NCBI GenBank assembly: GCA_030407005.1
Contig: JAUDYN010000007.1
Span: 2,604,001 to 2,668,000 of the forward strand
Direction of reading: 5' to 3'
Length of the DNA stretch: 64,000 nt
Source: Desarmillaria ectypa
Lineage: Eukaryota > Basidiomycota > Agaricomycetes > Agaricales > Physalacriaceae
Shown here: piece by piece, positions 19,359 to 40,887 of the stretch
How the letters are laid out: every line of letters starts with the position of its first letter
How positions within the stretch are numbered: the stretch's first letter is position 1
Program-made: the position numbers and the translations under genes
Notes under the pieces: model-generated
Told to the model about the DNA's origin: nothing
Database searches by the model: none
The model's input: the letters and a program-made list of their open reading frames with translations, nothing else

Positions 19359-19721
19359 AATGTGTAACCAACACGCGCCTGTTAGTTGTAATTATATCAT
19401 TTTTTCTCTTTCACTCAATACGTTTACCCTCATCTGCTGTATAACCACTTCAACACACATAGACGTAGTTTATTTGCTCACGCATTGCTTTACATGACCG
19501 GATATAATTGATGATGTCCACCTTCCATCAGTACTGAGTACTTCTGTTTCATTGCCCGTAGACAGCCTCAAAAGAATTTAGAGCGTTGATGTGGGGGAAT
19601 AATAAATATTTCCTTCTTCCTCTCTCCACGAACAATAGATAGGTCTGTCTAAAGGTAGGTGTTAGTGCTATATCATCTTGCAGCCGCCTTTACATTGGAT
19701 CAAAAGCGAGAATCGAAGGAC
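19359..19721. other. ACC1 3' flank up to the inverted repeat
   Basis: About 360 bases between the ACC1 stop and the first base of the left repeat arm. It holds T-rich and AATAAATA-like stretches (for example 19600-19610) suitable for 3' end formation. No gene is seen. It shows no obvious similarity to the sequence outside the right arm, so the repeat ends abruptly here. Confidence 0.6.
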
Positions 19722-20252
19722 GTATTACTAATAAGGCGACGTGCATGTCCCCGCCCATCGAAGAGAGGATGTGAGGTCAAACCCTCCTGCTGTGGCCACT
19801 GCCTCGGGACACAACGGTAGCCCGGTCGATAACGATCTTGCAGCAGGCGGGAGACGGTGCAAGTTGCCCTCGCAGTCCGTCATAAATCCCTCCGGTACAG
19901 CTACCTACCTCGACGTAGTCGATACGTCGAGGGGAGCGCGTCCACCAACATCCAAGAAATGCACGCCTCCAAAAGAATACAACACATATCTTTTTTTTTT
20001 CTACGCCGACCAATCATTGTCCCAGCGGTATTTTGCGATATTTGAATAAGTAAATCGTCCGTTCTGCGAGATCCCAATAACTGAACTGTCCGTGCCACCC
20101 AATCATCGTATCGAAGTAGTGCGATTGCAGTTCTTCAATTTGATGCGGGTGGTCTAGAAAACAAGAGAATGAAGAAAATGGAAAACAAAAAAGGAGAGGA
20201 GATGCTTAGCTCTGAAACTCCAGGTGGCTTTTTCAACTTGCGAATGGAAGAA

Positions 20253-21542
20253 TCAGAGACAGCAGTCTCCCTTGCACCGTGAGCGTGACGGGTATCTTGG
20301 CGCGACTCCGAACGGAGAAGGTTGACGCGGTGAAGGCGGAGGTCCCATTGGACGTCCCCGGCCCAGGAAAATATATCGAATGCGCCTGAGTTTGACGATA
20401 GCGAGTCGAAGCCGCCTGATTGCAATACGATAGGGAGGCCTTCGAGGTGGTAACGGCGGTGGAGAATCCTTTGGAAGTCCCTCACCCGGCACGATGCTTG
20501 AAGCTTGAACAGGATTGATGACGGTGAGTGGAGGTGGGACTGCGATACCACGGGGAGAGTCTTCATATGGCTTCAGTTCTACTTCTGCGACGACTATCTG
20601 CGTCTCGACAATGGAACTTCCGGTCAATGTCACCGGAGGGAAAAATGTATCGAGGTTTGTGACCAGAGAGCGAATGGTCTGCAACGAAGGGCGGCCGAGA
20701 GGTTCAATGGCAAGCATCAGGTTGAGAATGTCCTGAGAACCAGGGGAGATGGCATATCCATCCAGGAAATAATTTTCCCTATTGTCACGGTACGCCTTGA
20801 ATCGAGGGTCGGAAGATGTGGCACAGCTCCAAGGACGGTGTCCAGTGACGAGGTTGAAAAAGATGACGCCCAATGACCAAAGGTCATTATGAAGACTAGA
20901 ATACCGTTCATTTATATTGTACTCGTTGATAACCTCTGCAGAAGGCTGTCAATGTCTGAAGATAGCGAAGAGGAATAATGACTTACCTGGGCTCATATAT
21001 TCAGGCGTCCCACACGTGAAGTCGTCCGACAGTGCATCTTCCGTCGATAGACCGAAATCTGATAGAAACGCTTGCGAGATATCCTCAGAGAAGAGAATGT
21101 TCTCAGGTTTGAGATCCCGATGATATACGCCGAGATCGTGACAGTGTGCAACACCGTCGAGTATCTGAATAAACGTCGACCGTATACGATTCTCATCGTT
21201 CCAAAATGCGCCTCTCTCGATAGCCGTGAGGAGGTCACCTCCAGTACATAAATCCATGAACGCGAACAGATACGGCCCTCGGCGGAAGAGGAAGTTAAGA
21301 CGAACGATATTTGAATGTTTTGATAGTTTGCGTTGAATTAAAAATTCCAGGGGATCGTCCACGGATTCTGGATCGATTTGTATGCATTTGACCGCATACA
21401 TAAGTTTCGGGAAGATGGGCGTTAAGACGTCCACGGCGTGATACACCTTGCCAAAAGCGCCGGCGCCAAGGCATTGGGTTAGACGATAACGGCCTCCATC
21501 AAGGAAGGCATCGGTCATATCCGGGATGTTGTATGAAGACAT
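20253..21542 (-). CDS. Ran1/Sks1-like serine/threonine protein kinase (left copy)
   Basis: Two exons, mirror image of 38155-39444, give 412 aa. All catalytic elements are present: glycine loop GAGAFGKV (26-33), ATP lysine in YAVK (52), catalytic Asp in YHRDLKPEN (143), DFG (162-164) and GTPEYMSPE split by the 51-nt intron. The start ATG follows a long pyrimidine-rich leader. The HRD and activation-loop sequences look like the fungal Ran1/Pat1-Sks1-Ksp1 group, which links nutrient state to growth or meiosis; the exact subgroup is inference. The C-terminal 110 aa are proline- and arginine-rich and end in a cysteine cluster (CKGDCCL). It is identical in translation to the right copy, so both should be functional or neither. 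Confidence 0.88.
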
Positions 21543-22314
21543 CTAATGGGATAAATGAGTAGAAATAAAAAGCGAGGGGAGAAAATACGCACTTGATAAA
21601 ATTTGAAGAAAAGGTTTTAAAGGGATAAACAAGACTATCAAAGCCTTGTAGTTGCAAATAAAAGTTGGTATGGAAGTATAAGAGCAGTGGGACTGTCAAA
21701 GTCTCAATTCTCAGGAGATGGTGGGTGTAGGAAATCAAAAGGTGAAAAGGCGATTTCTGATTCGATTGGAGCCTTAAATGCAACCCTGCCATTCCACAGA
21801 GAAGTAACATGTCTGAGACACGCTAACATGTGAAAAAACTATCAAAAAGCGCGCTTGGACAGAGAGCGTCGCGTTCAAAGTGAAAGTGGGCGGAAGCAAA
21901 ACACGTCGATGGACATGACGTCATGAAGATCCAGATTTCCGGGCCGGGAATGGACACAGTCATGAACGCTTGCGGATACATGTATGAGACGGGTGTCTCT
22001 ACTCTTTCTGGTATGGGTTAAAATATTTTAGAAATATTTATACGCCAAAACCAACTTGGAAACCGTTATTCCTTTTTTATTTTACTTGTTCCTGCAGAAT
22101 TGCGGTCCGGTCATCCCGTCCGAAATCAACTTTGAACCCTAACCCTAAGCATTACTTCTTTTCCTCCTCAATGCATATTTTTCATTGTGGAAGCGTCGCA
22201 ATGGTAGAACTCCTTTTTAATATTTGGCCGGAGACACAGCCATGTTGATTCTATCCTGCCAATGGTGCAACCATGGTTGTGCTCCGCTTCTCTGCCACGA
22301 TCCACTACGAGGTA
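21543..22314. other. Intergenic part of the left arm, between kinase and F-box relic
   Basis: Shared promoter region of two divergently oriented genes, about 770 bases, repeated in the right arm (37383-38154). It includes T-rich leader sequence next to the kinase, an AT-rich piece with AAATATTT motifs (22020-22080) and two telomere-like units. No gene is seen. Confidence 0.6.
22137..22148 (+). repeat. Interstitial telomere-like repeat, (CCCTAA)2
   Basis: Two perfect CCCTAA units inside the left arm. Fungal telomeres of this group use TTAGGG. Two units can occur by chance, so this is only a note. The same 12 bases appear reversed at 37549-37560. Confidence 0.6.
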
Positions 22315-23519
22315 ATGCCGTCTACTCTACACGGTGTTAACGACGACGTGCTTGGTGTTATCTGCTCCATACTTGACAAGTATGAAGTATGTGGTTACTT
22401 GTCGTTATGTTTGAAATCTTAATCCCGTATAGTTAAAGCAAAGCAAATTTCACTCGTCGATAAACGGTTGAGAGAGATATCTCTGCCGCTGCTCCTTCGA
22501 CGTGTGTGTGTCCACTTTATACACAGGGATGTTGTGTGGAAACTAGTGATAGATGCCATTGAGAGCATGCTTGCTTCGATGGCTTTCGACGTCGTTGTCG
22601 GGCACACTAGGTGAGGGTTGACTCGGCGGGTATCGTTAACATCCAAACGCGATAGATTTCTTGATATTCGTGTTTCGGATGATAAAAGTGAAGATCCGAT
22701 GCCCTCCGTCCTACCCAGTCGACTTGCCAAATTTCTGTCCTGGCTTCACTATTGACGAAAAACAGGCTCAAACTTTCGAAGACAAATTCACCATGGCGCA
22801 CATCGAGCTTCCTACCATCACTACTCTCATGGTGGGAGCTTATTGTGATTTCATGGTACGCCTCTGCCCGAACGTTGAACATGTGGCGACCTATGGTTGG
22901 GTATGGCTCTGTTCGAATCGTGGTAGAGCTTCCAGAGAACATTCGTTCAGGCTTATTGCTGCAGCGAGAGGGGCAAAAATTCTGAGGCACTTTGAGATGT
23001 ATGAAAAGTGGTCATCGATCTGTTGCAGGGTGAGCTAGTGAGTTCATTTCCCCCTTCACTTCTGGTTTTCAGCATGCTCTTAGCTGTATACGACGCAATT
23101 CCTTCAATCGCAACACTAACCTTGGGCGGCGCTCGGGTCATAGATAGTCTTCTGGTTTGTCTGTCATCTCGTCACCACTTTCAATACCCGCTTATGATGA
23201 TGATTTATCAGGCTCTTATTCTGAGTCAGTTCAAGAAACTGAAAACACTTGGACTGGTGGACACTTCCTCTCTACACGTCGGATTTAATCCTCCAAGGTG
23301 CGGAAACGTGTATATTGGTCCGAATGGTGACGAGATCCGGAGGAAGGTGGAAGCACAGCACGGAGTCGCGTTGCAGACACCGTCTTTAGCGCTTGCATCA
23401 ATCTCGATGTTTTTATTCTCGCAAACCGCTCGAAAGCAATCGCTACACGGTTTTCTGCGGGCAAAATTCGGGACATTCAATGGTGTCTGGAGGAGCAATC
23501 GAAGATCACGAAGGTCTAA
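22315..23519 (+). pseudogene. F-box-like/LRR protein, broken (left copy)
   Basis: An F-box-like start (GVNDDVLGVICSILDKYE, then after an intron ISLVDKRLREISLPLLLRRV) is followed by leucine-rich segments typical of the large mushroom F-box families: ELPTITTLMVGAYCDFMV, CPNVEHVATYGWVWL and HVGFNPPRCGNVYIGPNGDE. The frame changes near 22740 without a plausible intron, and again near 23405, where the family frame continues as DIQWCLEEQ and then stops. I therefore read it as a pseudogene, though short introns could rescue part of it. Bases 22315-23404 are shared with the right copy; the last 110 bases are not. If expressed, such proteins are substrate adaptors of SCF ubiquitin ligases. Confidence 0.6.
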
Positions 23520-23784
23520 AGTCCCCTATTTCGCTGGTCCCGTAGATATATTAGATATTTTTTATGATTTCTGAACGCGATCATCGTATTACACAGTACA
23601 CTACCACCTCGATGTTTGGAGTTCTTTGCATTTGGTCTGTGTTAGAATTACAGGATGTTTCGGCTGGCCTGATGCTTCATATTGATGCGTGAGCTGCGGG
23701 TACAGACCATGCACTAGCTGATTCAATCTGTTTCGAGCAACGATTCAGGAAACATTAAGTAATACTGTACTATCATGACCGTAT

Positions 23785-24376
23785 CTTCACACCGTATTAC
23801 GCATTATGCACGTATTCACTGGGACGGATCTTCACAAGCTTGTGTTACGCGTTACGGTCAAAGTAGAACTTCATTTTGTATTACTTGCAGGATCCGTTTT
23901 CTACCAGTGCACCTGACGATGATAGTGATATCCCATTGGATGTTATCGCGGATCTTGTGCATTCCCGAGGCATGGATCTTAAGCCGGGATTTGTGGCAAT
24001 TGCTGCTGATGGTGCCATTCCCTGCTCGACGATTGCGGAAGCAGACGATTCATTGGTGGTATCACATCAAGATGCTCCAGAGCCGGATGTCTCTGGTAAG
24101 TAAGCGTGGCCGCAAGATCAAGCGATCGACCTGGTACGAGGGCGAAGAATAGGAACGGTCTTAGAGGTAGATATCCCTGTGCACGTCATTTTTTTTAGCC
24201 ATCTACACCTCACCACAAATATTACAATGTACGGCAGCACGAAATTCTCGATTTTTGATAGTCCAAAAGGCTGTTTATTCATACAAAATATACCATCTTC
24301 ACTGTGCTGTGTTACGTGTTACGATACTCACAGATCTTCACATTACGAGCCCGTGTTACGCGTTATGTGAATATGC
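23785..24376 (+). repeat. Pair of degenerate direct repeats rich in TTACGCGTTACG
   Basis: Two imperfect copies of about 80 bases, near 23785-23865 and 24296-24376, share the order TTCAC, GTGTTACGCGTTA-like blocks and GATCTTCACA. They are about 510 bases apart and bracket the orphan exon at 23891-24095. They could be ends of a decayed non-autonomous element, but I see no target-site duplication. Confidence 0.4.
23891..24095 (+). pseudogene. Orphan exon-like ORF of unknown origin
   Basis: An open stretch of about 68 codons with a good acceptor (TTGCAG) before it and a good donor (GTAAGTAAG) after it. It encodes an acidic start (DPFSTSAPDDDSD) and no motif I recognise. A second short open piece downstream ends KRGRKIKRSTWYEGEE. 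No start codon exon or partner exons were found, so it is probably a relic of a gene or transposable element. Confidence 0.35.
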
Positions 24377-24424
24377 GATCGTAATAGTACAGTACACCCC
24401 CCCCCCAGTCAACATCAGGAAAAA

Positions 24425-24860
24425 GGCTTTTGCTACGTAGCACCCTGCCAGCGCTACGTATTGCTACCCCAGGTACGTAGCTCGATAGCGTGCCGCCAGT
24501 GCTATGTAGCATCAGTAGTGGTCCATAGCTCTGTGCTTCGAGTACGTGCCAGCATATAGTATCCCTTTCTTCAAGTCTATTGTGGAGGGGGGGGAGTAGA
24601 GTTAATTATTAGTTGTATGACCATTCTAATATACACATTTTGACTGCATTTCAGCGCTGTGTATTTGGGTGATTATTACGAGCACTAGTGAATACTGTAT
24701 TGTATGTATAGATGCAGTACTGCTGCGTATCCCTGACATGCAAGCTATGGGTGTGCTACGTAGCACTACGTAGCATTCGCAGGAGTGCTACGGATGCTAT
24801 GTTAAGGGGTACCTGACTACGGGGCTATGGAAGCTATGTATAGGCAGTACCTATATATAG
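24425..24860. repeat. Cluster of GCTACGTAGC palindromes
   Basis: TGCTACGTAGCA (a perfect 12-base palindrome) and near variants (GCTACGTA, GTACGTAGC, GCTATGTAGC, CACTACGTAGCA) recur within two sub-clusters, about 24430-24515 and 24750-24860. C runs and G runs flank the block (24398-24407, 24588-24596). No gene is seen from 24150 to 25050. Confidence 0.6.
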
Positions 24861-25052
24861 CTTGGTGTATTTTTCCTGATGAACCCAAAGCAATAGAATC
24901 TTGAGGCTGAGGATACCGATATTTCCGACGACAGTACGAGCCGCACTACAATACAAACCAGGAAATGGTGGTGGTTAAAAGGGAGTTGAGCAGTAAGCAG
25001 TACAGAAAAGGTACAATCTTGCTGAAATGTATGTATGAGAAATCAATGTACA

Positions 25053-27470
25053 TCAAAGAAAGAAAGAAGAAAATAGACCATTTGACTGTTCAACCTTAGA
25101 GCCGGCCGTATCATCGAACTCAACTGCCTGGAACGCCTGACCGGTAGAACTAAGTAACATCTGTTCCCCCCACAAGCGCGCAGGGATCTCGTGATTATGT
25201 CGTAGGAAGAAACGTATACGCTCCAACCATTCTCTCAAGAGGGCAAATCTACATCTTGTTCGGGCACTCTCTTCCACCCACCCCGAACCTCCTTTTTCGA
25301 TCGCATGAAGTGAAATTTGCGCGAGCCAGTAAAATTGTAAGGTGTTGTGTACCAAGGACGATTTGTTATAGACCGGCCCTACGACGTCGCAGCAATGCAT
25401 CCACGTTTGGAGCCAGTTGTGTAAAATGGACTGCAAACGGACGTAGTCTCTATTGGAAGTGGGAAACGAATAAATGTCTCTGAGGATGGCGTGTACCAGA
25501 ATGAAATGGGAAAATGGATTTGGCGGGGTTGGGGGCGGCGTAAAAATGCAGCCGTGATGAGGGAGTTCTGATTCCCCAGCCAGAGTGGCAAGCGCTTGAT
25601 GTAAATTGACTCCAGACAATCTCGTGGAACCCGTGGAAAAGCACGAAGGCCTTTTTGTCATTTCCAACCATTCGATAGCGCTTGGGGCATTCCATAGGTC
25701 GTCATCGCTTGGCAAGTTGACATTAAATTCCGTTGATTTAAAAGAAGCCGGTCTCGAAAAATAGATGGGGTAACAACAATCGTGAAAATACGAGAGTACC
25801 AGAGTACTACAACGTTGTGAGATTGAGGAAAGCAGATCAATGCATACGATATACCGTTTCATAGTCTCGTGCATGGCCCATTCACGCCAGGATTGTTCCA
25901 GTGAGAGTGTATCATTCAAATCAGGAACTGTCCAAGAGCGAAGACGCGTAACCAAGCCGGTTTGGCGGATCATCTGTAAGGTGTGTGAGTGACAGAGTGA
26001 GAGGCTGAGATAGCGGATATACCATAACTAGCATCTGATGATAGACGCTGGTGATCACCTGTTGTTCGGCGTCTTGATGAAAAAGACCGACGGTCTGAAG
26101 CAGAACAACGGCTAATATTAAGAAGTCTTGATCGATTATGGGTTTTGCAGCCTGGGTACAAGCATCAATACCCGAAGAATACTGAGTTCCGGGACGTACA
26201 AACTCCTGTACGAGGAGATTACGAGAGGATAGCGTTTCCTCGATGAATGTTGCAGCCTGTTTTGTCTTGACAAAGAGCGCGCCACACGCTTTCATGGCTC
26301 GAACGAGAATAGAGGGCTTACGGTCCGCAGACCACGTTGCAAGATGCACCAAAGGAAGATGTTTACAGAAGTCGGAGAAAAAATACCGGGCTAGAGAAAG
26401 AATTACCTATAAGAAGAACGATGTATTGGAAACAGGGACCTACTATATTCCTGATCTTCTGAAGTACTCGGAAGAGTACCCATCACCGGCGATGAGTATC
26501 GCGAATAATCATATGATGAAACTTTATTGTTATTAGAGTTGAGCCATGAGAAGTCGAGGCCATCGTTGAATGGCACGTGTGGGTCTAACCAGTGGTAAAA
26601 CGGACATAACATATCGAAGGACCTCTCCCACGCGTGTTGATTTTGATCCTCTTTAATTTGGGGTGATAACGTACGGGGAATTTCGTCCACTGCCCGCCAG
26701 TCCAAGGGCGTAGGCGATGAATAATGTGTCTCGCCCTCCGATGCGGTGTTAGCAGGCGGCAAAGAAGAGGGCGGGGAGAGCGGAGTACATGACGATGACA
26801 AAGCAGGGGAACCTTTGGAGATGTCCATTGTTTCGCCTTCAGGTTGCCGGTGAGGCTGTTTACCAACAAACACGCATTCCCCTCCCCGAGCAACGCATCT
26901 CGAACAGGGTTGTTCAAGCTGTCTATCGCATTTAGTTCTAGACAGAACACAAGCCTGTGTATCAGACTGATGATCAGTGCTTTGTTTCTCAAATCCCATC
27001 TCCTATACCTCGCACCTCGCATGCCCTTCTCTTCCTTGGCTTTTGATCGAGCCTAACGACATATTTAGTTATCTCATTACGACCAAGCACAGCTAAAGAA
27101 GCTTACGGTCCCTTACAAGTCTTCAAGTGTCGTTTCAATACGTCGAGTCTGGCGAATTGAGTCTCGCATTGCTGGAAAAAATGTTGGTAAAGATGCATTA
27201 TACAACTATCTGTCACCTACGATGCACTGATGCATGCGCTGGAAGGAGTCTGAAAATTTTTAGCTATCTGCACGATGGGTCATTGACAGTGGGGTACTCA
27301 CGAGAGCGTATATGCTTATGCAAATGAGTAGGTCGCGTATATCTAGCAGAGCAAATAGGACATGTCAGACTCTGAGGCAGCATAGCACCCTTTGCCTTCG
27401 CGTCCAGCACGGTCGCCGGCTCAAAGAGCTGAAAAGTCACATAATCGTAGGCGGGAGAGGACGCTTCCAT
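25053..27470 (-). CDS. Transcription factor with two zinc fingers plus Zn2Cys6 and fungal TF domain
   Basis: Seven exons (27470-27302, 27249-27221, 27171-27107, 27052-27016, 26954-26444, 26390-26023, 25973-25053) sum to 2,100 nt, or 699 aa. Finger 1 is C37-x2-C40-x12-H53-x3-H57, and finger 2 is C65-x2-C68-x12-H81-x3-C85. A basic stretch (KPRKRR) leads into a complete Zn2Cys6 cluster with cysteines 99, 102, 109, 117, 120 and 127, whose first CxxC is split by an intron. A Ser/Pro-rich linker follows, then a fungal middle-homology region (RAMKACGALF, YHQMLVM, FILVHAILRDIYSF). This C2H2 plus Zn2Cys6 design is known in fungi and binds DNA in the nucleus. Targets are unknown. The MFS transporter 3.5 kb away is a possible but unproven target. 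Confidence 0.87.
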
Positions 27471-29419
27471 AGGGAGAGTATATGCAAGGAATCAGATTCG
27501 AGATGCAGGTTGAGGTGAAGACGCGTTTGGCGCTTGTTTTTATATGATGCATTTTCGGCTGTAAGAAGCTAGTATAAAGAGGGAGGTTAAACGGTGTAGG
27601 CCAGCTTAACACAGCTGCATCACTGCCGGCGGTTGCTAGATATGTGCAGATTCTGACTCTGAGATCCTATCAAGTCCCCGGATAATAAGATAGCGCCTGT
27701 GAGTCACCAGTTAGGCGACTGTGACCCCCAATGTGAACAGGACTGATCACACTCACCTATTGCAGAGCATTTCTTCAGGTAAGGTGTGCAACATAGGTGC
27801 GGGCGCCAATTGCCTTTGATAAAGTGGAAGCTTCGGCTTCTCACTTAGCCGAATACAAAGTTCCCACCCTCGTGGTAGTTGTCCCTGGATCCTTGCTATT
27901 TTCGCGATGATCCCCAGTGGAATGTGTTGGAATCGCAGATGCTGGATCAACTCTTGTCAGAATTAATAGCAGTGATTAGGGATGCGTTAGGCATTGGCGA
28001 GATGGAAAAGCGTATTAGCTTGCATGCTGTAGGGGTTTCTGAGTAAAAGACAATTAGGCCCATGTCCCGTGCTCTAGTAACTGTCTCACTGCGTCCTGAA
28101 GCACGACGTCCTCTACTATACCACGCATAATGCTGGTGAATAAGCCCTGTGAGAACTAAAGACATTTCGGAAATGGAATTTGAACACCGTCACAGCGGAT
28201 AAGCCAGGGTAGGAGATATACATAAGAGCTCGTTATCGCACCCATGTCAATCTAGAAGTCAGGGTCAGCTTGTCGGGTTGGATCCATAAAATCTACTCAC
28301 TCGAATGTCCTTGGCACTTTACACAATGCCTCGCTGAACCAAATGATTTGTTCAGAGCCCAGACGTTAGTATCCCTAAAAAGTGTCACGAGATTTGAATA
28401 GGACCAGCACAACCATGGCAGCAGGTTGAACATTTCGTTACGTAAGTGACAGTACACCTACAGCACAGCCTAAGCACGCAAGTAGACCATTGAGAGTTGA
28501 CCACTCGATATTAGGTGTGGCGGGATCAAGGTATTGGCAAGTATTAAATAGATTGAATCGCTAGCATGGATGGACGGCAAATTCTCTGGAAGCTTTAGCT
28601 CGGTGTTCATAGGTGATCTATGAGCATCGAAATCGCTGACAACTTGCGCGTCATTCTTCGACCACCATGTTTCCTGAGCCTGTCAGATTCTGCTTGTTAC
28701 CTTCAACAAAGATAACAGCAATGTGTAGCAGTGCCATATGTAGCATGGATACGGCGATCTTGAAATTGGGTGCTCTAAGCCGGGTTTTAGCCAGGATAGA
28801 AGTAATGATCTGCTTTTGCATTGTACAAATATGGCATATGAGGGGATTTATCTCAAAAGTCAGCGCCTTTAAGGAGGGATATTTTGGAAATAATATGCGT
28901 GAAACATACTCCCTCTCCTCCATATAGTTCTCGGGTTAGCAATTGATGATGTACCGGACATAGACCTCGACGACCTCCAGAGTAGAAGACATAAGAACTC
29001 CGAGAGCTTCAAGAAACGAAAGCCACGTATTATCTTCCCGCCAAAGACGTAGATAGAGAAATAGTTGCGATAAGGATAGTGCTCGCAGGTCCTTTACTGG
29101 CCAACGACCATTGCTAGAACTACACAGATTTTAGCAAGAATCGGAGATGCAGATGAGCAGCACGCAGGCCACGACGTTCAACTGTAGTGCAAATGAGATA
29201 GAGCACAACGTCGTTGAAACCATCGAGCGCACCATCGTGTAACCCCCCCGTCATTGTCGTTGTTGATTGCAGTACGGACTTGGTGTTGGTGTTGTTGGTG
29301 TTGTTTGGTACGGACCGTACGATAGCTTCTACTATGACGCATTATTTGTCCCTATTAGCCTAGGGAGGTGATCCAAAAATTTGGGCTATTTTTTTGGATT
29401 TCCTCAACTTCGGATTTCG
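27471..29419. other. 1.9-kb gap between the transcription factor and EBP2
   Basis: Must contain the divergent promoters of both neighbours. A minus-strand stretch near 27950-27770 reads HTLPEEMLCNR and another at 28923-28651 reads like a weak leucine-rich segment. Both recall F-box proteins, but the frames are broken and I cannot assemble a gene. A GGTGTT-type microsatellite lies at 29280-29310 and a C run at 29242-29249, just upstream of EBP2. Confidence 0.45.
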
Positions 29420-30812
29420 ATGGTTTCTTCAAAATCCAAAACGCCGGGAAAGCGCACAAAAGGCAAAGTCGTCGACCCTCCCGTTGTTGTGCCTTCGGAT
29501 TCTTCGGACTCAAACGACGAAGACTCTGACAATGGAGGTGTCGACGAAGAAGGAATGGAGCGTCTCATGAAGGCTCTAGGAGATGAAGGTTTGGATGAAT
29601 TTGACCAGGCGCAGCTAGGAGCTCTCGGTGGTGATAAGGAATCATACAGTCAGAGCGAAGATGAAAATGGCAGCGACGAAGAAGATGCTGAGGGCATTGA
29701 CGCAGTGAACGACAGTGAAGAGGAGGAAGAACAAGAACAAGTAGCTAACGAAGACGATGCAGAAGAAGATGAGGGCGATGTCGAAGAAGAAGTCGCTCTT
29801 GAGGACATTGAGGACGTCGACGATGATGTTGTTCCACGGCAAAAAATTGAAATCGACAACCAGGTATGTGTTGCCCTTCCTAGAGTATTATCATTCTTAC
29901 ATCTTCCACGCAGGCCGCTCTCGCACGCATACGCGAATCCATACAGCTGGACACCTCACTTCCATGGACAGAGACTCTCGTTCTGTCGTATCCAGAAACT
30001 ATAGATGTCGACGTGAATGACGATCTAAACCGTGAAGTTGCATTGTATGTACCCTCTCTTCATATACTTGAGCCTGTCCTAATATCATTTACTCTCAGTT
30101 ATAAGCAGGCACTTCACGGAGCCAATGCTGGTCGAGCATTGGCGGCAAAACACAAATTCCCATTCACGCGCCCTTCGGATTACTTTGCAGAGATGGTCAA
30201 GACGGACGCACATATGGAGCGGATACGACAGCGTCTATTGGATGAGAGCTCAGGCATCAAAAAGAGCGAGGATAAACGCAAGGAAAGGGAAGGGAAGAAG
30301 TTCGGGAAGCAGGTACAAATTGAAAAACTCAAAGAGAGGGAACGTTCGAAGAAGGATATGGAGGAACGACTGAAGGGCCTGAAACGAAGTATGCTTCCGC
30401 CTTTCTCTTGTGCACGTCAGGAAACTGAATGATTCCTGTAGAACGAAAGGACGTCCTCGACAACCCCAATGCCGATGACGACGCCTTCGACGTCGCTGTT
30501 GAGGATGCTATCTCAGATCGTCCTGCGAAGCGCGGTCGTGGTGGACTTTCGCGTCAGAGCCGGGACAAAAAGTTTGGATTTGGTGGTGGAGATCGGCGAT
30601 CAAAGCAAAATACCCGAGAATCAACCGATAACTTTGAATCTGGGTCTCGGAAAGGTTCTTTCAGAGGCAGTGGAAGGGGCGGTAGAGGCGGTAGAAGTGG
30701 CGGCGATGGAAGGGGCGGAAGAGGCGGGAGAGGCGGTGGAAGTAGTGGTGGACGCCATAGTTCAAAGAGACTTGGTAAATCCAGACGCGTTACTGCTCGC
30801 AGTAAGACATGA
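29420..30812 (+). CDS. EBP2: rRNA-processing protein EBP2
   Basis: Nucleolar factor needed for 27S pre-rRNA processing and 60S subunit assembly. Four exons (29420-29863, 29914-30044, 30099-30388, 30442-30812) sum to 1,236 nt, giving 411 aa. The ATG at 29420 is the first in frame; the longer open frame upstream has none. Order: basic start, very acidic stretch (residues about 35-145), then the conserved EBP2 block with LARIRESIQLDTSLPW, YKQALHGANAGRALA, PFTRPSDYFAEMVKTD, and a charged helix KKFGKQVQIEKLKERERSKK. The C-terminus has the usual KFGFGGG and KRLGKSRR signals. Between them sits an unusual RGG-rich segment of about 30 residues. Convergent with the MFS gene, with 141 bases between stops. 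Confidence 0.95.
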
Positions 30813-30953
30813 TAATATATCTGGACATGGTGCAATACCATCATATTCTTCTTCCCTTCTCAGTGTTGCACGATTAAATTGCAGGAAGTTGGCACCACTT
30901 TGCAAGAAACTATGAATGAATTGTAAGATACATTGCAAAATGATTACACCACC

Positions 30954-33389
30954 CTAGTGTACAACTACTCTTTCACTGCTTTTAGTCATGCTATGTCCTT
31001 CACGCTCTTTCAAGAATAGCACGCAAACCCCCGCAATCACAAATACAACAACGCTGGTGTATACAGGTACCGTTCTATCGATCATCAAAAGCATTCCACC
31101 GATCAGAGGAGCTATCATTCCTCCGCTAAGATAAAAGTCAGATATACTACACAATGTGAAAAGAAGACGCTTACATTCGTGACAGGGCAGACGCAATCCC
31201 GCACGCCGTCCCTCTAACTATGAACGACATATTTTAGGAAAGGCAGAAACATCACCGACAAACGAAGAATCTTACCTTTCGTGCCAAATATCTCTGGGGT
31301 CCAACTGATGCCAAATCATCAATATGCCAGCTTGGGCGAAAGCGAAGACACATACCCATATAACACCGCCCACATCGTTGTCGCACTGAGACTGACTCCA
31401 ACCGTACTTGCTCTAACTGCCCATGATGATTCCACCATCACAAACACCACGCAGAAAATAGCTGTTACAAACGTGCTCCCGGCCAACGACCAACGGCGGC
31501 CGAGACGTGATTCTATCATATATGCGCCAATCTACTCAAGTTATTTAGTCATTATAGGGATAGATGATTATAAAACTGACAATAGCCCCAGGACAACCAC
31601 CAATGGTGAATATTACCACGTCCCATAGACTGTCTTCTAATGATTTCGTAGTCTCCCCAGATGAGTCTTTACCAATTTCAAGGAGTTTTGGGAGAAAGAC
31701 GTTGAACATGGTATAAGCTGAACATACGAGATAAGCATACGTCTCGGGAAGGAAGAATCTTCCTACCGAGCGACATAGCACACCAGGCTGCCCACATAAA
31801 CAATGTTGTTCTCAACCACTCCGGGGTAAGAACCATCAGAATCCGATCCCACCATGCCCATAGAGGACGTCTCAGCCAACTTGGTAAGACACTGTATAGC
31901 TGCTTCTCGTACACAGACGATGTGCGTCTTCGAGATCGGGAGGTAGGACGTGATGAGACCCGACGTGGTCGTACTATCGGTTCGACATCTTCCTTGAGCG
32001 AATGAGGCTCTTGGTACGGGATCGTCGGAGTTTCAAAAGAATGCGACTCGAGCTGCTGTGCCGGCGATTCTCCCGTCGAGTGATAGTCAGCAACTCTGGT
32101 GGGGGAATTGGTGCCATCATCGCCAGCAGGTCGCGTATCCGGCGCCACGGCCGGATGTTGATCTACACTCCGAACATCCTCAACATCGTCGAGGTCGAGA
32201 GAAAGCGGAGCGCCGTTAAATCTTGCTATCATTTGCAGCGACTCGACAGCTTCTTGATGACGCCCAGCATGTACTAGGAAACGAGGAGACTCGTGTAGCC
32301 GGAAAAAGACCATTCGGGCCGAAAACATGCTGAGTGTCTGCGAAATGAAGCGTTAGTTGATCTATAAAACATTGATTGTTTACGTACAATGAGACCCAAT
32401 GTAATGAGAAGGTACTTCCATCCCTGATTCTGTACATCGACATCGCATCCAGCCGGCGGCGGTGAACACGAATGATGGGGTACAATGAGCAAGGCTACGA
32501 TAGCAGACAAGACGGCACCAAACGAGAAGAAGACTGACAACGCAGTCACCAGGTATTGCTTCCCTCTCGGCATGTGTTCCAAAAGTAGAGTGCCATCAGT
32601 GGGCATTGAACCCTGAATACGCGTCAATCAAGAGTTGACCTCAATAGTGGACGCGACCTACGCCTACAGCTGTGCCCAGCAAGAAGAGAAGGGTACATAA
32701 AGACGTGTACGACCAAGATAAGGAGGCCAATAGCCCAAAAAGTGAAGTAAAGAACAGCGTGGCGTTAAACGCGGTGCTTCGACCCATGAGGTCGGAACCT
32801 GAAAACGGGGGTGAGCTGAGCAAACCAAAGGCGAGTTCTACGTACAGGTCCCCCAACCCACTGCTCCGAACATCATGCCACAGAATAACGAGGAGGACAC
32901 AGCCCCAATGTACCTGTCCGGTACTGAAAAATAGTTGTAACAAGCAATGCAGTATGCTAGGTAGTACACACCGGCATAGTGAAGCTGCACACGAGGTAGG
33001 ATGATAGCCACTGCTTGAATCCACATCTGAACATCCTGTCAAGAAGGAAGAATTTTGTGCAAATGCATACTGACATTGTCGGCCATCCAACCTAAGGAAC
33101 TTTGTTAGACTCGACACTACGAAGAAATACCGAGAAAAATCACCAAAACCACACAGCGACAGGAGCGTCCATTGATAGCTGCCCATACCAATACGGTCTA
33201 TGGTTCTATCCAGCTGTAGGCGAGTGAGGAAAAAGAAATTGTCAACAGTGAGTAGCGCACCGGAGTCCGCCCATCATCCAGTTCATCGTCGTCGATGAGC
33301 TGCTGCTGCTCGACGTCGTCATCGTCGATAAAGTAAGAGTCCATTTCATCTGACCAAAGCACAGAGGCACGCGGGGTTACACTGCCCAT
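30954..33389 (-). CDS. MFS transporter, SV2/SVOP-like
   Basis: Membrane transporter of the sugar-porter-like branch. Thirteen exons sum to 1,839 nt, giving 612 aa; the first is 33389-33261 and the last 31125-30954. After an acidic cytosolic start comes DRTIDRIGMGSYQWTLLSLCGFGWMADNMWIQ, quoted here as two family blocks (DRTIDRIGMGSYQW and LCGFGWMADN), diagnostic of SV2/SVOP relatives. Then AVSSSLFCGMMFGAVGWGT, MPRGKQYLVTALSVFFSFG, FFRLHESPRFLVHAGR and a long hydrophilic central loop with many Arg and Ser. The second half has YTMFNVFLPKLLE and YGWTPEIFGTKVRGTACG. About 12 helices are expected. Substrate is unknown. No damage seen. The start lies in an arginine-free acidic segment rich in Asp. 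Confidence 0.92.
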
Positions 33390-34013
33390 TTTGGAACCCC
33401 TCTGTACAGTCAGCAAGCGAAATATCGCAATTCAGTAATCACAAGTCGCAATTGAGTCGTCCTTTCTCCGATAAACAGCTGTAGTGGAGCCTTGAGGATA
33501 TCAGTGTCAGGTCACTAGCGTCTCCGACATCAACGTCAATGGCGAGACGGTCGTGGGAATCCGTCGTCACCACTGTCTAACGGCCCGAAAACCCGCAGTA
33601 TGAACAAAACGATGGTGCAGACTGATATGGTGCTTGACAACGTTGACAACGGCGTCCCGTCTTCTCTACGCGACGCTCTGTCGTCTTAATTGTTTCACGA
33701 ATGTCCATCTAGCTCAGGCAGCTATCGATACGCCCCGCCTGTTCACTTTCCGGGCTTAGTCCGGGTCAATACCGCTCTCGTTCTGCCTAAAATTTAAAGA
33801 GGCCTTAATGCTTGTTTCGTCAGCTCTCAATATCATCGCGGCTAGCACCTAACCATCACAACTCATTTACGTGACAGGCCACTAGATATTCGCCTTACCC
33901 AAGGCACCATAGAAAAGTCCTTTCCAGACGTATTTCGACGACATTTCGCTCTGTTTGCCGTTTCGCAAACTCGTAACCTTTGATTTTCTACCTGAGCGAA
34001 AGCCAAGCCCAAC
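33390..34013. other. MFS transporter upstream region
   Basis: About 620 bases of ordinary composition before the next relic. It should hold the MFS promoter. I see no ORF, repeat or clear TATA element. Confidence 0.5.
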
Positions 34014-34640
34014 ATGGATGTGGAACTTCCCACCGTAACATCACACGTTGAACATCTGGTGACTAACAGTTGAGTATGGCTCCATTCGAAACGTAGTGTG
34101 CATTCGAGGGAGCATTCATAGACTTATCCGTGTAGCTGACAGCACTAAACCCTTAAGCCTAAACACTTTGAAATGAATGAATGGGACAAATAACCTTCCT
34201 TAGAGGTGAACCCAGCACTATTCTACACATCTCATCTCATAGTGATTCATTACACGACACAGGACCGAGTAACCCAAGTCATTACAGGAAACGCGAAATC
34301 AGCAATCTCCCCATACCAACCACCACGGTATATCACATAGAAACAAAGATTTTCAGAATGGAATGTGCCCATTTGGCGTGGTAATGGCCTTTCGGCTTTG
34401 GACCATTATCGCTGACTTGTTCGTCTTAGCTGTATACAACGCTATGTCCAATGTTTCGACACTGACGACGATTGGGAGCCATTCTGAAGAACCTCTCAAT
34501 ACTGTCACGACTTGCTGTTACTGTCTGCCGAAACTCACGCAGACATATACAGGCTTTTGTTCCTATCTTGTGCGAATTCGAGGCACTCAAGAAGCTCGTA
34601 TTAAGTACCGAATGTGGCTTACTTGGGAGCATATACATGC
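34014..34640 (+). pseudogene. Decayed third copy of the F-box-like family
   Basis: Two blocks match the F-box-like pseudogene of the repeat arms. Bases near 34014-34140 correspond to the ELPTITTLM ... EHVATYGWVWLCSNRGRASREHS region but carry stop codons. Bases near 34413-34480 (LAVYNAMSNVSTLTTIG in one frame) correspond to LLAVYDAIPSIATLTLGG. The copy is on the plus strand, opposite to the right-arm copy 1.5 kb away. No intact frame survives. Confidence 0.6.
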
Positions 34641-36129
34641 CGCGTGGCAATGAGGTACAAAACTTTGCTGACGCTGTCGCAGTATACGTCGATGCGGACG
34701 TAGGCGGTTACGCGAGGTCGTGAGTCGCTTGCAGTTCGGCTGGGCGTAGAGGAGAAACGAGGTTTTCGTAGACTTGAAAATGTATCTAGGACTAAATCAG
34801 TATAAAGAGCGAAAGGACCACTTACTAGGCTCTAATCAGAAGGCTCGTGGGCTCGCTCAATGGCTCAGTGCTCGTGGTAAAAGGGAAAGAAAAGTAAAAT
34901 CCAATTTCATCGGACAGGTACAGATAACGAAAGAGGGGGTGGCCGTACGCGTGCTCGTGCGTTGCCAGAGCACATAGATAGTGTCTTTGTATATGTGGAT
35001 GTATTCTATAATAAAAAGTGTCAAAAGAAGTAGAATTTCTTAGCTACAAACCTTGGCCTCGAGCAAGAGCAAATTTTTGACCGGGATACGCGCAACTACG
35101 GCATAGGAAGAGCTTGCTGCCCCGCTCAGCGTACGAACGGTGGTCTAAGCTGTCGTTGCTCGATTCCCAGCGCATTCCGAGCTAAATTTATCTGCTGTTG
35201 GCCTTGGTCCTTCGCGTCAGATGGGGTAGGGGGGGGGGAATGGTGGTGGAAGAAAACTAGAGAGAGAAATAAGCGAAAGGAGAGAGTAATATACTGGTAA
35301 TAGCAGGCGACACTCATACGACTCATACGACCCCTTCCACCATTGCTTGAGATAGCTCAATTGTCAGTGAGGTGAGCTACCTCAATATTGTTATCGAGAT
35401 CTTGAGCCATGTTGTCCTAAGGCCGAAATGTTGGATGCATGCTCCTCGATCCTGGAGCTATGCATCGTCGCAGGCAGAGAGAGGGTGAACCTATAGAGAA
35501 GAAATGGCAGTAATATGAAGCAGATGGCAGTGGAAAAGAAGAAAGAGACGTAGCAAACCGAAAAGGAAGTACAAGTCAGCCGGCCCGAGACGTCGAGTCT
35601 ATGAGCACGGCAACTCGTACTACCACAACGCGGAGAGAAGCCAAGCTCATAAACGCGTTGCCCGTATGGTCTTCGGGTCCTGCAATCAAACCGAGGTAGT
35701 GGTAGTTGGATCGCTTTCTAAGGCCACGGTAACCAGGGGAACGAGATGGGGTATCCTGGATATCGCTTGATCTGCAGAAGAGCAAGAGAAGATTGTGAAG
35801 TTCTGGTCATCAAGTACGTACGAGCTCGAGGATTTCTTTTTCCCCCTTGGCTGAAGGTCGACATCATATGTAAGATTAACATCGTTTAACGTCAATAAAG
35901 GCTGGGCTTGTCCCACGTGTCAGTATTGAACAGATTACAGACTCGAAGAGGTACCTTGCATCTTTCCGATCGACCCAGCTTTGCGATGCAGGAGAGAAGA
36001 AGACGTAGTACGTGATCAACTGACTCACAGGCAGGCATGAGCAGATGAAACGGACGACTTTGTATGGCAAGGATCCAATGATCGCGCCGTGATTGCAATA
36101 AGTACGCACTCAACGACTGGGTACAGATT
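34641..36129. other. Relic-rich stretch without a supported gene
   Basis: Short open frames on both strands without motifs. A run of nine G lies at about 35229-35237. A minus-strand piece near 35916-35686 (LLTLNDVNLTYDVDL) has no recognised family. The part nearest 36130 may be the decayed 3' end of the adjoining F-box relic. Confidence 0.4.
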
Positions 36130-37382
36130 GAGTGCCTTCCCGGGATTCCGGAATGAAGATGTAAAAACAACAGGCACAATAGACCCCGCAATCGTCTGCC
36201 GTTCCTCTTCACACCATTGAATGTCTTGAATTTGCCGTCCTTTTCCTCTGGTAATGATAGCCTTGGAGATATGGCCAAGAACCAGGACATCAAGATTGAT
36301 GCAAGCGCTAAAGACGGTGTCTGCAACGCGACTCCGTGCTGTGCTTCCACCTTCCTCCGGATCTCGTCACCATTCGGACCAATATACACGTTTCCGCACC
36401 TTGGAGGATTAAATCCGACGTGTAGAGAGGAAGTGTCCACCAGTCCAAGTGTTTTCAGTTTCTTGAACTGACTCAGAATAAGAGCCTGATAAATCATCAT
36501 CATAAGCGGGTATTGAAAGTGGTGACGAGATGACAGACAAACCAGAAGACTATCTATGACCCGAGCGCCGCCCAAGGTTAGTGTTGCGATTGAAGGAATT
36601 GCGTCGTATACAGCTAAGAGCATGCTGAAAACCAGAAGTGAAGGGGGAAATGAACTCACTAGCTCACCCTGCAACAGATCGATGACCACTTTTCATACAT
36701 CTCAAAGTGCCTCAGAATTTTTGCCCCTCTCGCTGCAGCAATAAGCCTGAACGAATGTTCTCTGGAAGCTCTACCACGATTCGAACAGAGCCATACCCAA
36801 CCATAGGTCGCCACATGTTCAACGTTCGGGCAGAGGCGTACCATGAAATCACAATAAGCTCCCACCATGAGAGTAGTGATGGTAGGAAGCTCGATGTGCG
36901 CCATGGTGAATTTGTCTTCGAAAGTTTGAGCCTGTTTTTCGTCAATAGTGAAGCCAGGACAGAAATTTGGCAAGTCGACTGGGTAGGACGGAGGGCATCG
37001 GATCTTCACTTTTATCATCCGAAACACGAATATCAAGAAATCTATCGCGTTTGGATGTTAACGATACCCGCCGAGTCAACCCTCACCTAGTGTGCCCGAC
37101 AACGACGTCGAAAGCCATCGAAGCAAGCATGCTCTCAATGGCATCTATCACTAGTTTCCACACAACATCCCTGTGTATAAAGTGGACACACACACGTCGA
37201 AGGAGCAGCGGCAGAGATATCTCTCTCAACCGTTTATCGACGAGTGAAATTTGCTTTGCTTTAACTATACGGGATTAAGATTTCAAACATAACGACAAGT
37301 AACCACATACTTCATACTTGTCAAGTATGGAGCAGATAACACCAAGCACGTCGTCGTTAACACCGTGTAGAGTAGACGGCAT
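36130..37382 (-). pseudogene. F-box-like/LRR protein, broken (right copy)
   Basis: Identical to the left copy from its ATG (complement of 37380-37382) to position 36293, including the frame change near 36955 that breaks it. After 36287 the two copies differ, but this one keeps the better family tail in another frame: ISKAIITRGKGRQIQDIQW, then CEEERQTIAGSIVPVVF. That tail is the expected C-terminal block of this F-box family. So the right copy looks like the more complete member, now joined to the shared sequence in the wrong frame. Confidence 0.6.
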
Positions 37383-37548
37383 TACCTCGTAGTGGATCGT
37401 GGCAGAGAAGCGGAGCACAACCATGGTTGCACCATTGGCAGGATAGAATCAACATGGCTGTGTCTCCGGCCAAATATTAAAAAGGAGTTCTACCATTGCG
37501 ACGCTTCCACAATGAAAAATATGCATTGAGGAGGAAAAGAAGTAATGC

Positions 37549-37560
37549 TTAGGGTTAGGG
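37549..37560 (-). repeat. Interstitial telomere-like repeat, right arm copy
   Basis: Two TTAGGG units read on the plus strand, mirror of 22137-22148. Confidence 0.6.
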
Positions 37561-38154
37561 TTCAAAGTTGATTTCGGACGGGATGACCGGACCGCAATTC
37601 TGCAGGAACAAGTAAAATAAAAAAGGAATAACGGTTTCCAAGTTGGTTTTGGCGTATAAATATTTCTAAAATATTTTAACCCATACCAGAAAGAGTAGAG
37701 ACACCCGTCTCATACATGTATCCGCAAGCGTTCATGACTGTGTCCATTCCCGGCCCGGAAATCTGGATCTTCATGACGTCATGTCCATCGACGTGTTTTG
37801 CTTCCGCCCACTTTCACTTTGAACGCGACGCTCTCTGTCCAAGCGCGCTTTTTGATAGTTTTTTCACATGTTAGCGTGTCTCAGACATGTTACTTCTCTG
37901 TGGAATGGCAGGGTTGCATTTAAGGCTCCAATCGAATCAGAAATCGCCTTTTCACCTTTTGATTTCCTACACCCACCATCTCCTGAGAATTGAGACTTTG
38001 ACAGTCCCACTGCTCTTATACTTCCATACCAACTTTTATTTGCAACTACAAGGCTTTGATAGTCTTGTTTATCCCTTTAAAACCTTTTCTTCAAATTTTA
38101 TCAAGTGCGTATTTTCTCCCCTCGCTTTTTATTTCTACTCATTTATCCCATTAG

Positions 38155-39444
38155 ATGTCTTCATACAACATCCCGGATATGACCGATGCCTTCCTTGATG
38201 GAGGCCGTTATCGTCTAACCCAATGCCTTGGCGCCGGCGCTTTTGGCAAGGTGTATCACGCCGTGGACGTCTTAACGCCCATCTTCCCGAAACTTATGTA
38301 TGCGGTCAAATGCATACAAATCGATCCAGAATCCGTGGACGATCCCCTGGAATTTTTAATTCAACGCAAACTATCAAAACATTCAAATATCGTTCGTCTT
38401 AACTTCCTCTTCCGCCGAGGGCCGTATCTGTTCGCGTTCATGGATTTATGTACTGGAGGTGACCTCCTCACGGCTATCGAGAGAGGCGCATTTTGGAACG
38501 ATGAGAATCGTATACGGTCGACGTTTATTCAGATACTCGACGGTGTTGCACACTGTCACGATCTCGGCGTATATCATCGGGATCTCAAACCTGAGAACAT
38601 TCTCTTCTCTGAGGATATCTCGCAAGCGTTTCTATCAGATTTCGGTCTATCGACGGAAGATGCACTGTCGGACGACTTCACGTGTGGGACGCCTGAATAT
38701 ATGAGCCCAGGTAAGTCATTATTCCTCTTCGCTATCTTCAGACATTGACAGCCTTCTGCAGAGGTTATCAACGAGTACAATATAAATGAACGGTATTCTA
38801 GTCTTCATAATGACCTTTGGTCATTGGGCGTCATCTTTTTCAACCTCGTCACTGGACACCGTCCTTGGAGCTGTGCCACATCTTCCGACCCTCGATTCAA
38901 GGCGTACCGTGACAATAGGGAAAATTATTTCCTGGATGGATATGCCATCTCCCCTGGTTCTCAGGACATTCTCAACCTGATGCTTGCCATTGAACCTCTC
39001 GGCCGCCCTTCGTTGCAGACCATTCGCTCTCTGGTCACAAACCTCGATACATTTTTCCCTCCGGTGACATTGACCGGAAGTTCCATTGTCGAGACGCAGA
39101 TAGTCGTCGCAGAAGTAGAACTGAAGCCATATGAAGACTCTCCCCGTGGTATCGCAGTCCCACCTCCACTCACCGTCATCAATCCTGTTCAAGCTTCAAG
39201 CATCGTGCCGGGTGAGGGACTTCCAAAGGATTCTCCACCGCCGTTACCACCTCGAAGGCCTCCCTATCGTATTGCAATCAGGCGGCTTCGACTCGCTATC
39301 GTCAAACTCAGGCGCATTCGATATATTTTCCTGGGCCGGGGACGTCCAATGGGACCTCCGCCTTCACCGCGTCAACCTTCTCCGTTCGGAGTCGCGCCAA
39401 GATACCCGTCACGCTCACGGTGCAAGGGAGACTGCTGTCTCTGA
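38155..39444 (+). CDS. Ran1/Sks1-like serine/threonine protein kinase (right copy)
   Basis: Exons 38155-38710 and 38762-39444 give 412 aa. The translation is the same as the copy at 20253-21542, including the glycine loop, Lys52, Asp143, DFG and the Pro/Arg-rich tail. Promoter and leader are also the same for 770 bases upstream, so the two loci should be expressed alike unless wider context matters. Because both copies are intact and so similar, the duplication is either very recent, kept uniform by gene conversion, or an assembly artefact. Confidence 0.88.
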
Positions 39445-39975
39445 TTCTTCCATTCGCAAGTTGAAAAAGCCACCTGGAGTTTCAGAGCTAAGCATCTCCT
39501 CTCCTTTTTTGTTTTCCATTTTCTTCATTCTCTTGTTTTCTAGACCACCCGCATCAAATTGAAGAACTGCAATCGCACTACTTCGATACGATGATTGGGT
39601 GGCACGGACAGTTCAGTTATTGGGATCTCGCAGAACGGACGATTTACTTATTCAAATATCGCAAAATACCGCTGGGACAATGATTGGTCGGCGTAGAAAA
39701 AAAAAAGATATGTGTTGTATTCTTTTGGAGGCGTGCATTTCTTGGATGTTGGTGGACGCGCTCCCCTCGACGTATCGACTACGTCGAGGTAGGTAGCTGT
39801 ACCGGAGGGATTTATGACGGACTGCGAGGGCAACTTGCACCGTCTCCCGCCTGCTGCAAGATCGTTATCGACCGGGCTACCGTTGTGTCCCGAGGCAGTG
39901 GCCACAGCAGGAGGGTTTGACCTCACATCCTCTCTTCGATGGGCGGGGACATGCACGTCGCCCTATTAGTAATAC

Positions 39976-40887
39976 ACAAAACGTCTGTGGTCCTTTGACT
40001 CGTGACATAAAAAATATCCCTCTCGCTTTCTGACACCTTATGTTGAGCCAGGCAAGTGGAGCCGTACAACCTTCTTACCTTTTGCCCTAACGACACTGCT
40101 TCCTTGAGTTCGATTCTTTACAACCCGTGCCTGTTACTCATTTATATTGCACGACCATGTTTTCCACAGTTAGGAACAAGCGGGCATTGCGCTGGCACTC
40201 TCAACCAGGGCAGTGAACAGGTTCTCTTGCCACCTTGAGCCCGTTACTAAACCAGAAGTACGAAAATACCTATGGTGAGCCGATCAGAGTCTCTGCTACA
40301 CGCGCATTCATTTTCATAACGCAGTAATGTCCCAGGCAGAGAATCCCAGATGCCGCACTAGACAAACTGAGTCCATAATACTCGCCCAAAGAATAGTCAG
40401 GCGTGGAGGGTAAACCCCAGATTTCGAGAGTAAATGCCGTTCAGACCCATATGCATCCATTCACCCTTCTGGAACCCGCATGACGATAAGCATTCCCCTT
40501 CTTGCTTCGGCATGCGGTCCGTCAACTCTTCCACACGAAACGAACTTCTGTCATGGTGCCACTGATTGATGCCGATATGCTCTGTGACCTCGAGATCTTC
40601 ACGATCGACTGGGCATTTTCTTCGCCCAAACACTACCCTCCAGGGTGTTGCCATGGCAGATGAGTTGGGTAAAGGTACCTTGACACGTCGCATCGCAATG
40701 GCGCTGCAGCAACTTCCGAACCGCTTGAAATTCGAAGGACATGACGTCACAACTCAAATTAACTGCTCCCTGCGGAAGGTGGCGAGTGAAAGGGTGATGA
40801 TATGATATTATTACCTGTCGCCTTCTAAGTTCCCACCACTTTGCTTTTTATCCACGTCACCCTCTCTCGACAGCGATTGACACCCTC
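39976..40887. other. Gap between right arm and the dehydrogenase gene
   Basis: About 910 bases with no supported gene. Open frames at 40566-40805 (plus) and 40397-40750 (minus) overlap each other and have no motifs. The last 100 bases should hold the dehydrogenase promoter. Confidence 0.5.

Follow-up and report, generated by a model that had tools for sequence, protein, structure and literature searches.

Genes and Features of the Inverted Repeat

The window examined here is a stretch of 64,000 nucleotides (C30:2604001-2668000) from the 40.6-Mb assembly, in 32 contigs, of the marsh honey fungus Desarmillaria ectypa, and the subject is a pair of long inverted arms beside the ACC1 gene, each carrying a kinase gene and the body of an F-box gene, that enclose a spacer of 12.9 kb. 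The species belongs to the Physalacriaceae, and its strain FPL83.16 is named in PMC10700112. The left arm (19722..23410, plus strand) and the right arm (36287..39975, minus strand) are both 3689 bases long and, when compared base by base, are reverse complements of each other with no indels. The paired coordinates sum to 59697, and the only two mismatches are at 19734 (A versus G) and 23405 (C versus T), so that the original prediction of a 3,689-bp near-perfect repeat with two mismatches, both near its ends, has been borne out. The tract between the mismatches (19735..23404 on the plus strand, corresponding to 36293..39962 on the minus strand) shows no difference over 3,670 bp, setting the divergence of the arms in this tract below approximately 0.08% (at 95%), and the probability that random placement would put both mismatches no more than 13 bp from an end is approximately 5e-5.

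In a search for inverted repeats seeded with 20 bases, these arms, extended to 3,725 nt, were the single pair of at least 60 bases in the window. With seeds of 10 bases, applied to positions 19000-41000, an extra inverted pair of 73 nt (74% identity) was found between 34045-34117 and 36753-36825, matching a degenerate F-box copy in the spacer to the right arm. A genome search with the arm returned three copies and one 48-bp match, with nothing further.

The kinase gene is intact in each arm, as had been foreseen, with one 51-bp intron and a product of 412 amino acids that is 100% identical to the D. ectypa database protein P0028 and contains a kinase domain (Pkinase, PF00069, E 7e-45). The right copy is at 38155..39444 (plus strand) and the left copy, encoding the identical protein, at 20253..21542 (minus strand, coordinates mirrored from the right copy). 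The F-box gene spans 22273..23519 (plus strand) on the left and 36181..37424 (minus strand) on the right, with the same body inside each arm and a C-terminus beyond it, and the frame on the right stays open to 36025. Compared to the full-length Armillaria relatives, this gene needs frame changes, the same ones in both arms, and thus, as read from the sequence, it looks degenerate in both. Its identity as an F-box gene is based on the source names of its homologs and on sub-threshold matches to the Pfam family F-box_4 in two of the three relatives scanned (14.6 and 15.9 bits, versus a cut-off of 32; the third relative, P0008, had none), while the composite translation from the arm matched no Pfam family.

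The region upstream of the kinase in the arm contains, at 21906-21923, an 18-mer with TGACGTCA that is 94% alike to one at 40732-40749, upstream of a short-chain dehydrogenase gene to the right of the repeat; this is possibly a shared regulatory site, or possibly chance.

Junctions of the Arms

The outer and the inner ends of the arms differ in character. Beyond the outer ends no homology was detected over 600 bp on each side (alignment score of 31, with 200 shuffles reaching up to 41), and the right flank (39950-41000), when used in a genome search, matched only itself. The outer edge, past the terminal mismatch, consists of 12 bp common to both arms (19722..19734, plus strand, including the mismatched base), and within the window this 12-mer is present only at 19722 and at 39964. 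Beyond the inner ends, homology persists (local alignment score of 50, with 200 shuffles reaching no more than 38), as past 23410 and 36287 both sides still read as F-box C-termini, but different ones, with only 16 of 35 residues in common. The arms, with no differences over 3,670 bp, are thus far more alike than the homologous sequence adjoining them.

The two C-termini were assigned to F-box subfamilies, here called A and B, through comparison to 16 of 27 matching database proteins (seven called A and nine called B), with individual comparisons using subsets of these. The labels were assigned by eye from the C-termini, or from the body in the case of P0012, which is truncated there, and P0014 and P0018-P0027 were left out as partial, distant, or, in the case of P0021, as the window's own model. 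The left C-terminus (23405..23519, plus strand, 35 amino acids) shares 23-26 of 35 residues with six A proteins and 9-18 with nine B proteins, and its assignment to A is clear. The right C-terminus (36181..36292, minus strand, also 35 amino acids) is identical at 20-23 residues to five B proteins, at 14-18 to P0010, P0011, P0015, and P0016, which represent more distant B, and at 17-19 to six A proteins, making its assignment to B a weaker one. The last block of the F-box body inside the arms is nearest to A, with 36-48 of 55 residues identical for A versus 27-36 for B, in the rows with 55 columns. The best match is the Armillaria ostoyae protein P0001 (48 of 55), the other A rows of this length giving 36-43, and the shorter rows giving 28 of 37 (P0012), 28 of 42 (P0015), and 27 of 42 (P0016). 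As the A body leads into an A flank on the left side and into a B-like flank on the other, the recombinant is likely the right side, and the best reading of the mismatch at 23405 is that unconverted paralog sequence begins with this base. A 210-amino acid, F-box-derived database model from D. ectypa, P0021, spans the right inner junction with its frame shifted and probably represents an erroneous gene prediction.

These junctions bear on two alternative origins for the repeat. One is a fault of assembly or polishing, producing either a false arm or a consensus in which true differences between the arms were erased, and the identity over 3,670 bp speaks for it. However, the arms differ in both their outer and their inner flanks, the inner flanks encode different F-box C-termini with relatives of their own, the right flank is single in the genome, and a linked kinase pair is present in A. 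ostoyae. The difference of the flanks and the single occurrence of the right flank make such a fault unlikely, and we consider this origin improbable, although polishing may have erased differences between the arms. The other is an inversion through staggered breaks, in which the segment between the cuts was duplicated at both ends as the spacer inverted. Such an event does yield an inverted duplication around a segment, but it predicts unrelated sequence at one of the inner flanks, where diverged F-box homologs are found at both, and we consider it very improbable.

The Third Copy

Approximately 242 kb from its source, a segment of 6.3 kb (C30:2371593-2377884, or L005:593-6884) matches positions 15770-22117 of the window at 95%, in the orientation of the left arm. 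It contains the 3' half of ACC1, the intergenic region, and the kinase, with no break at 19722, and it carries the left-arm base at 19734. Its kinase gene is intact, encoding a 96% identical protein, and the ACC1 portion is fragmentary, with indels and, by our reading, an in-frame stop. The continuity of this copy across 19722 indicates that the left outer junction is old. Moreover, the divergence of the third copy from the left locus exceeds, even in its closest part, that between the two arms, so that the third copy should predate the event that equalized the arms, placing the left outer junction first.

The divergence of the third copy from the left locus is uneven, at 4.18% over 15770-20770 (206 of 4,929 positions) and 1.04% over 20771-22117 (14 of 1,346; Fisher p 8e-10, with the split at 20770 picked after viewing the divergence profile). 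When noncoding sequence is compared to noncoding sequence across the same split, the counts are 30 of 964 and 5 of 574 (p 0.004). The third copy may thus have also exchanged sequence with the arms, or constraint may differ between the two parts. The presence of long copies at three places, along with the fact that the match to the third copy also starts at position 1 of the query, could be taken to suggest that the arms represent a mobile element with defined ends. However, the third copy extends past the outer end of the arm to include part of ACC1, and its inner limit is a different one. As the three copies are without common termini, the mobile element was rejected, and we assign it next to no likelihood.

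Just outside the left end of the third copy, L005:493-564 matches positions 22126-22195 of the window (72 bp, 75%, E 4e-7), which in the arms are located just past the right end of the third-copy match; a genome search with 22118-22290 returned the two arms and not L005. Two telomere-like CCCTAA units are also present near the end of this match, at 22137-22148 and at the mirror position in the right arm, between the kinase and the F-box genes.

Probable Gene Conversion between Older Inverted Copies

The original prediction had named a very recent copy, active homogenization, or an assembly fault as the options for arms this alike, and the evidence supports this choice of options while leaning toward the homogenization of an older pair. 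We consider it fairly probable that an old inverted kinase/F-box pair is located beside ACC1 and that its left arm recently overwrote the right one through ectopic gene conversion. The starting state would have been an inverted pair of kinase and F-box genes around a spacer of approximately 13 kb, with F-box paralogs A on the left and B on the right already diverged. A break in the right copy in D. ectypa would then have been repaired on the left template, by ectopic gene conversion or a long tract of break-induced copying that set out from the F-box homology close to the C-terminus, continued across the F-box body and then the kinase with its 3' flank, and ceased where the shared sequence ends. 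The right arm, the likely recipient, would have thereby become a 3.67-kb replica of the left arm, the likely donor, retaining as its own remnants the F-box C-terminus on the inner side and the last 13 bases on the outer side. The F-box body may owe a mosaic structure to previous exchanges over shorter tracts. To account for the identity of the arms, a single recent event suffices, and the arms themselves would be old. We infer this mechanism, its left-to-right direction, and the existence of a right-hand kinase before the event, as well as any flip of the spacer through a crossover between the arms, which, for arms of such length and likeness, could occur.

Homogenization of an older pair is favored by the diverged F-box sequences at the inner ends, by the position of the mismatches at the extreme ends, by two linked kinases in A. 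ostoyae, and by two kinase-tail proteins on equal-sized contigs in Armillaria borealis. The relatives were compared as proteins, with gene order in A. ostoyae taken from locus tags and linkage in the other species from contigs of equal size. The two A. ostoyae kinases, ARMOST_06804 and ARMOST_06811, and the A-type F-box protein ARMOST_06805 are each on a contig of 3,820,363 bp. These kinases, seven tags apart, are identical to each other at 461 of 510 residues and are 65% identical to the D. ectypa kinase, while the two copies in D. ectypa are 100% identical to each other. Six tags are located between the A. ostoyae kinases and six genes or remnants between those of D. ectypa, from a partial annotation and with tags taken as gene order, the six in D. 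ectypa being the two arm F-box genes, a transcription factor, EBP2, a transporter, and a degenerate F-box copy; of the six A. ostoyae tags, the comparison covers 06805. The linkage and the gene count together suggest that the inverted kinase/F-box pair is old. In A. borealis, EV421DRAFT_1909262 and EV421DRAFT_1909269 match the kinase tail only, and both are on contigs of 273,084 bp, as is the A-type F-box protein of this species (P0004). Armillaria novae-zelandiae, Armillaria luteobubalina, Armillaria fumosa, and Armillaria nabsnona possess an A-type F-box protein and a kinase on equal-sized contigs.

A mosaic structure of the arm F-box protein would point to exchanges of this kind. When compared to the A-like P0012 and the B-like P0008 of Desarmillaria tabescens, the protein has 84 two-state sites. 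Residues 187-264 match P0008 at 16 of 17 such sites, versus 17 of 67 elsewhere, a contrast as strong as this being found in none of 1000 shuffles, and a runs test with the same pair as the reference gives p 0.025. With the Armillaria rows only, the block 184-264 is again the most B-like, at seven of seven sites (six A versus four B rows) or nine of nine (versus eight B rows). Judged from these patterns, the arm F-box is likely, but not securely, a mosaic of A and B.

A number of points weigh against conversion of an older pair. The Armillaria-only contrast just described was matched by 113 and 121 of 1000 shuffles and is thus not significant, and outside the comparison to D. tabescens the first 185 residues of the F-box protein favor neither subfamily clearly. 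The relatives inform on the matter only as proteins, tags, and contig sizes. In the quartet of A. ostoyae and A. borealis kinases, one informative site groups by species and one by position, leaving homogenization within Armillaria unsupported, and the tails of the A. ostoyae pair are identical at 223 of 261 residues, no more than across species. Both Armillaria kinase pairs resemble each other far more than they do D. ectypa, a pattern that independent duplications would also produce. The B-type F-box proteins of A. nabsnona, A. fumosa, and A. borealis are encoded on contigs other than those of the A-type proteins of the same species. No protein named D. tabescens is present among the kinase matches at E <= 1e-70 or 1e-90, as found among the best-sharing 7990 and 7994 candidates scored. 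Lastly, the 12-bp match at the outer edge could represent microhomology at a junction.

The strongest alternative is a first-time duplication, in which a broken end close to F-box B invaded F-box A and the kinase was newly copied through break-induced or template-switch synthesis, with rejoining at the 12-bp microhomology and with no prior kinase on the right. The same junctions fit this scenario, D. tabescens possesses A-like and B-like F-box proteins on equal-sized contigs and no named kinase match, and the existence of another duplication of the kinase in D. ectypa suggests a locus prone to copying. It is countered by the two linked kinases of A. ostoyae, whose separation by six tags equals the count of six genes or remnants in D. 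ectypa, and by the two kinase-tail proteins of A. borealis, as the first-time copy would require separate duplications at nearly the same location. The lack of significance in the Armillaria-only mosaic contrast places slightly less weight on the conversion reading, and on the deeper history considered below, and more on this alternative, which we regard as possible but rather unlikely.

Relation to Known Inverting Loci

The closest known kind of locus is the flip/flop region of Saccharomyces chromosome XIV; the D. ectypa locus has the same build and, by our reading, would work in the same way, making it a candidate member. As described by Salzberg et al. (2022, PMC9731477), the yeast region consists of 4.2-kb inverted repeats around 24 kb that are homogenized within strains and species and that re-invert. 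In both cases near-identical inverted repeats of approximately 4 kb, carrying gene pairs, surround a multi-gene region, and the identity of the Saccharomyces arms is ascribed, in that source, to gene conversion between them. Unlike in Saccharomyces, the D. ectypa arms are 3.7 kb and the spacer is 12.9 kb, the genes are a kinase and a degenerate F-box gene, the host is a mushroom, and a single orientation has been seen, in one genome. Another example is the recurrent inversion on the mammalian X chromosome (Caceres et al., as cited in PMC9731477), in which, as proposed here, a segment is located between inverted repeats that are kept alike by conversion; it differs in its genes and in the kingdom concerned. 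A third example is the mating-type inversion of Ogataea (Hansenula) polymorpha, in which, according to PMC4238957 and PMC9731477, a segment of a fungal chromosome inverts. That case represents a mating-type switch, and at the D. ectypa locus, of which one orientation has been seen, no mating-type gene was recognized among the open frames scanned.

The D. ectypa locus is a real, well-preserved case, in a mushroom, of a known phenomenon, and it provides a counterpart to the much-studied flip/flop region of yeast. Its footprints are clear, with diverged paralogs on one side, a short remnant that escaped conversion on the other, and a third copy that polarizes the event. More tentatively, and as a proposition we rather doubt, it could represent an ancient armillarioid flip/flop beside ACC1, in which the pair would be older than the split between Armillaria and Desarmillaria, the arms would have been repeatedly re-homogenized, and the EBP2-containing spacer would re-invert within species. 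If the arrangement is conserved, it will be testable whether inverted gene pairs are homogenized for dosage or merely owing to their facing orientation, and whether inversion of the spacer takes place in natural populations. No paper on the D. ectypa locus was found in a search by titles and the starts of abstracts, with full texts mostly outside its reach.

Content of the Spacer

Between its edges the spacer encodes three recognizable or probable genes. One is a Zn2Cys6 transcription factor (25053..27002, minus strand), matching Pfam Zn_clus (E 1.8e-5) and Fungal_trans (E 9.1e-6) in separate open frames. Another is the rRNA-processing protein EBP2 (29420..30812, plus strand, with the extent taken from open frames), matching Pfam Ebp2 at 29884-30429 (E 2.6e-52). 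The third is a probable membrane transporter (30954..33431, minus strand), for which one frame matches MFS_1 at E 0.0022, below the Pfam cut-off, and three frames match nothing, the extent being read from the adjacent frames. The spacer also contains a third, heavily degenerate F-box copy (34020..35800, plus strand), recognized by tblastn at 34020-34118, 34390-34479, 34514-34675, and 35642-35800 (E 2e-5 to 0.003). The earlier description of the spacer genes as unrelated to the arms thus holds only in part: with this copy at ~34020-35800, and with edges that continue the arm F-box as diverged C-termini, the spacer does contain some sequence related to the arms.

Two dispersed repeats are also present. 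The one at 23763..24394 (632 bp, no strand assigned) resembles a miniature inverted-repeat transposable element, possessing 29-nt terminal inverted repeats (83%) and partial copies elsewhere in the genome. The other, at 34675..35627 (approximately 953 bp, plus strand, assigned arbitrarily), splits the degenerate F-box copy in two and, as judged by eye, has TG..CA ends and a 4-bp ACGC flank. It has many genomic matches (spanning approximately 34668-35630), the best at 91% identity, and is probably a solo long terminal repeat.

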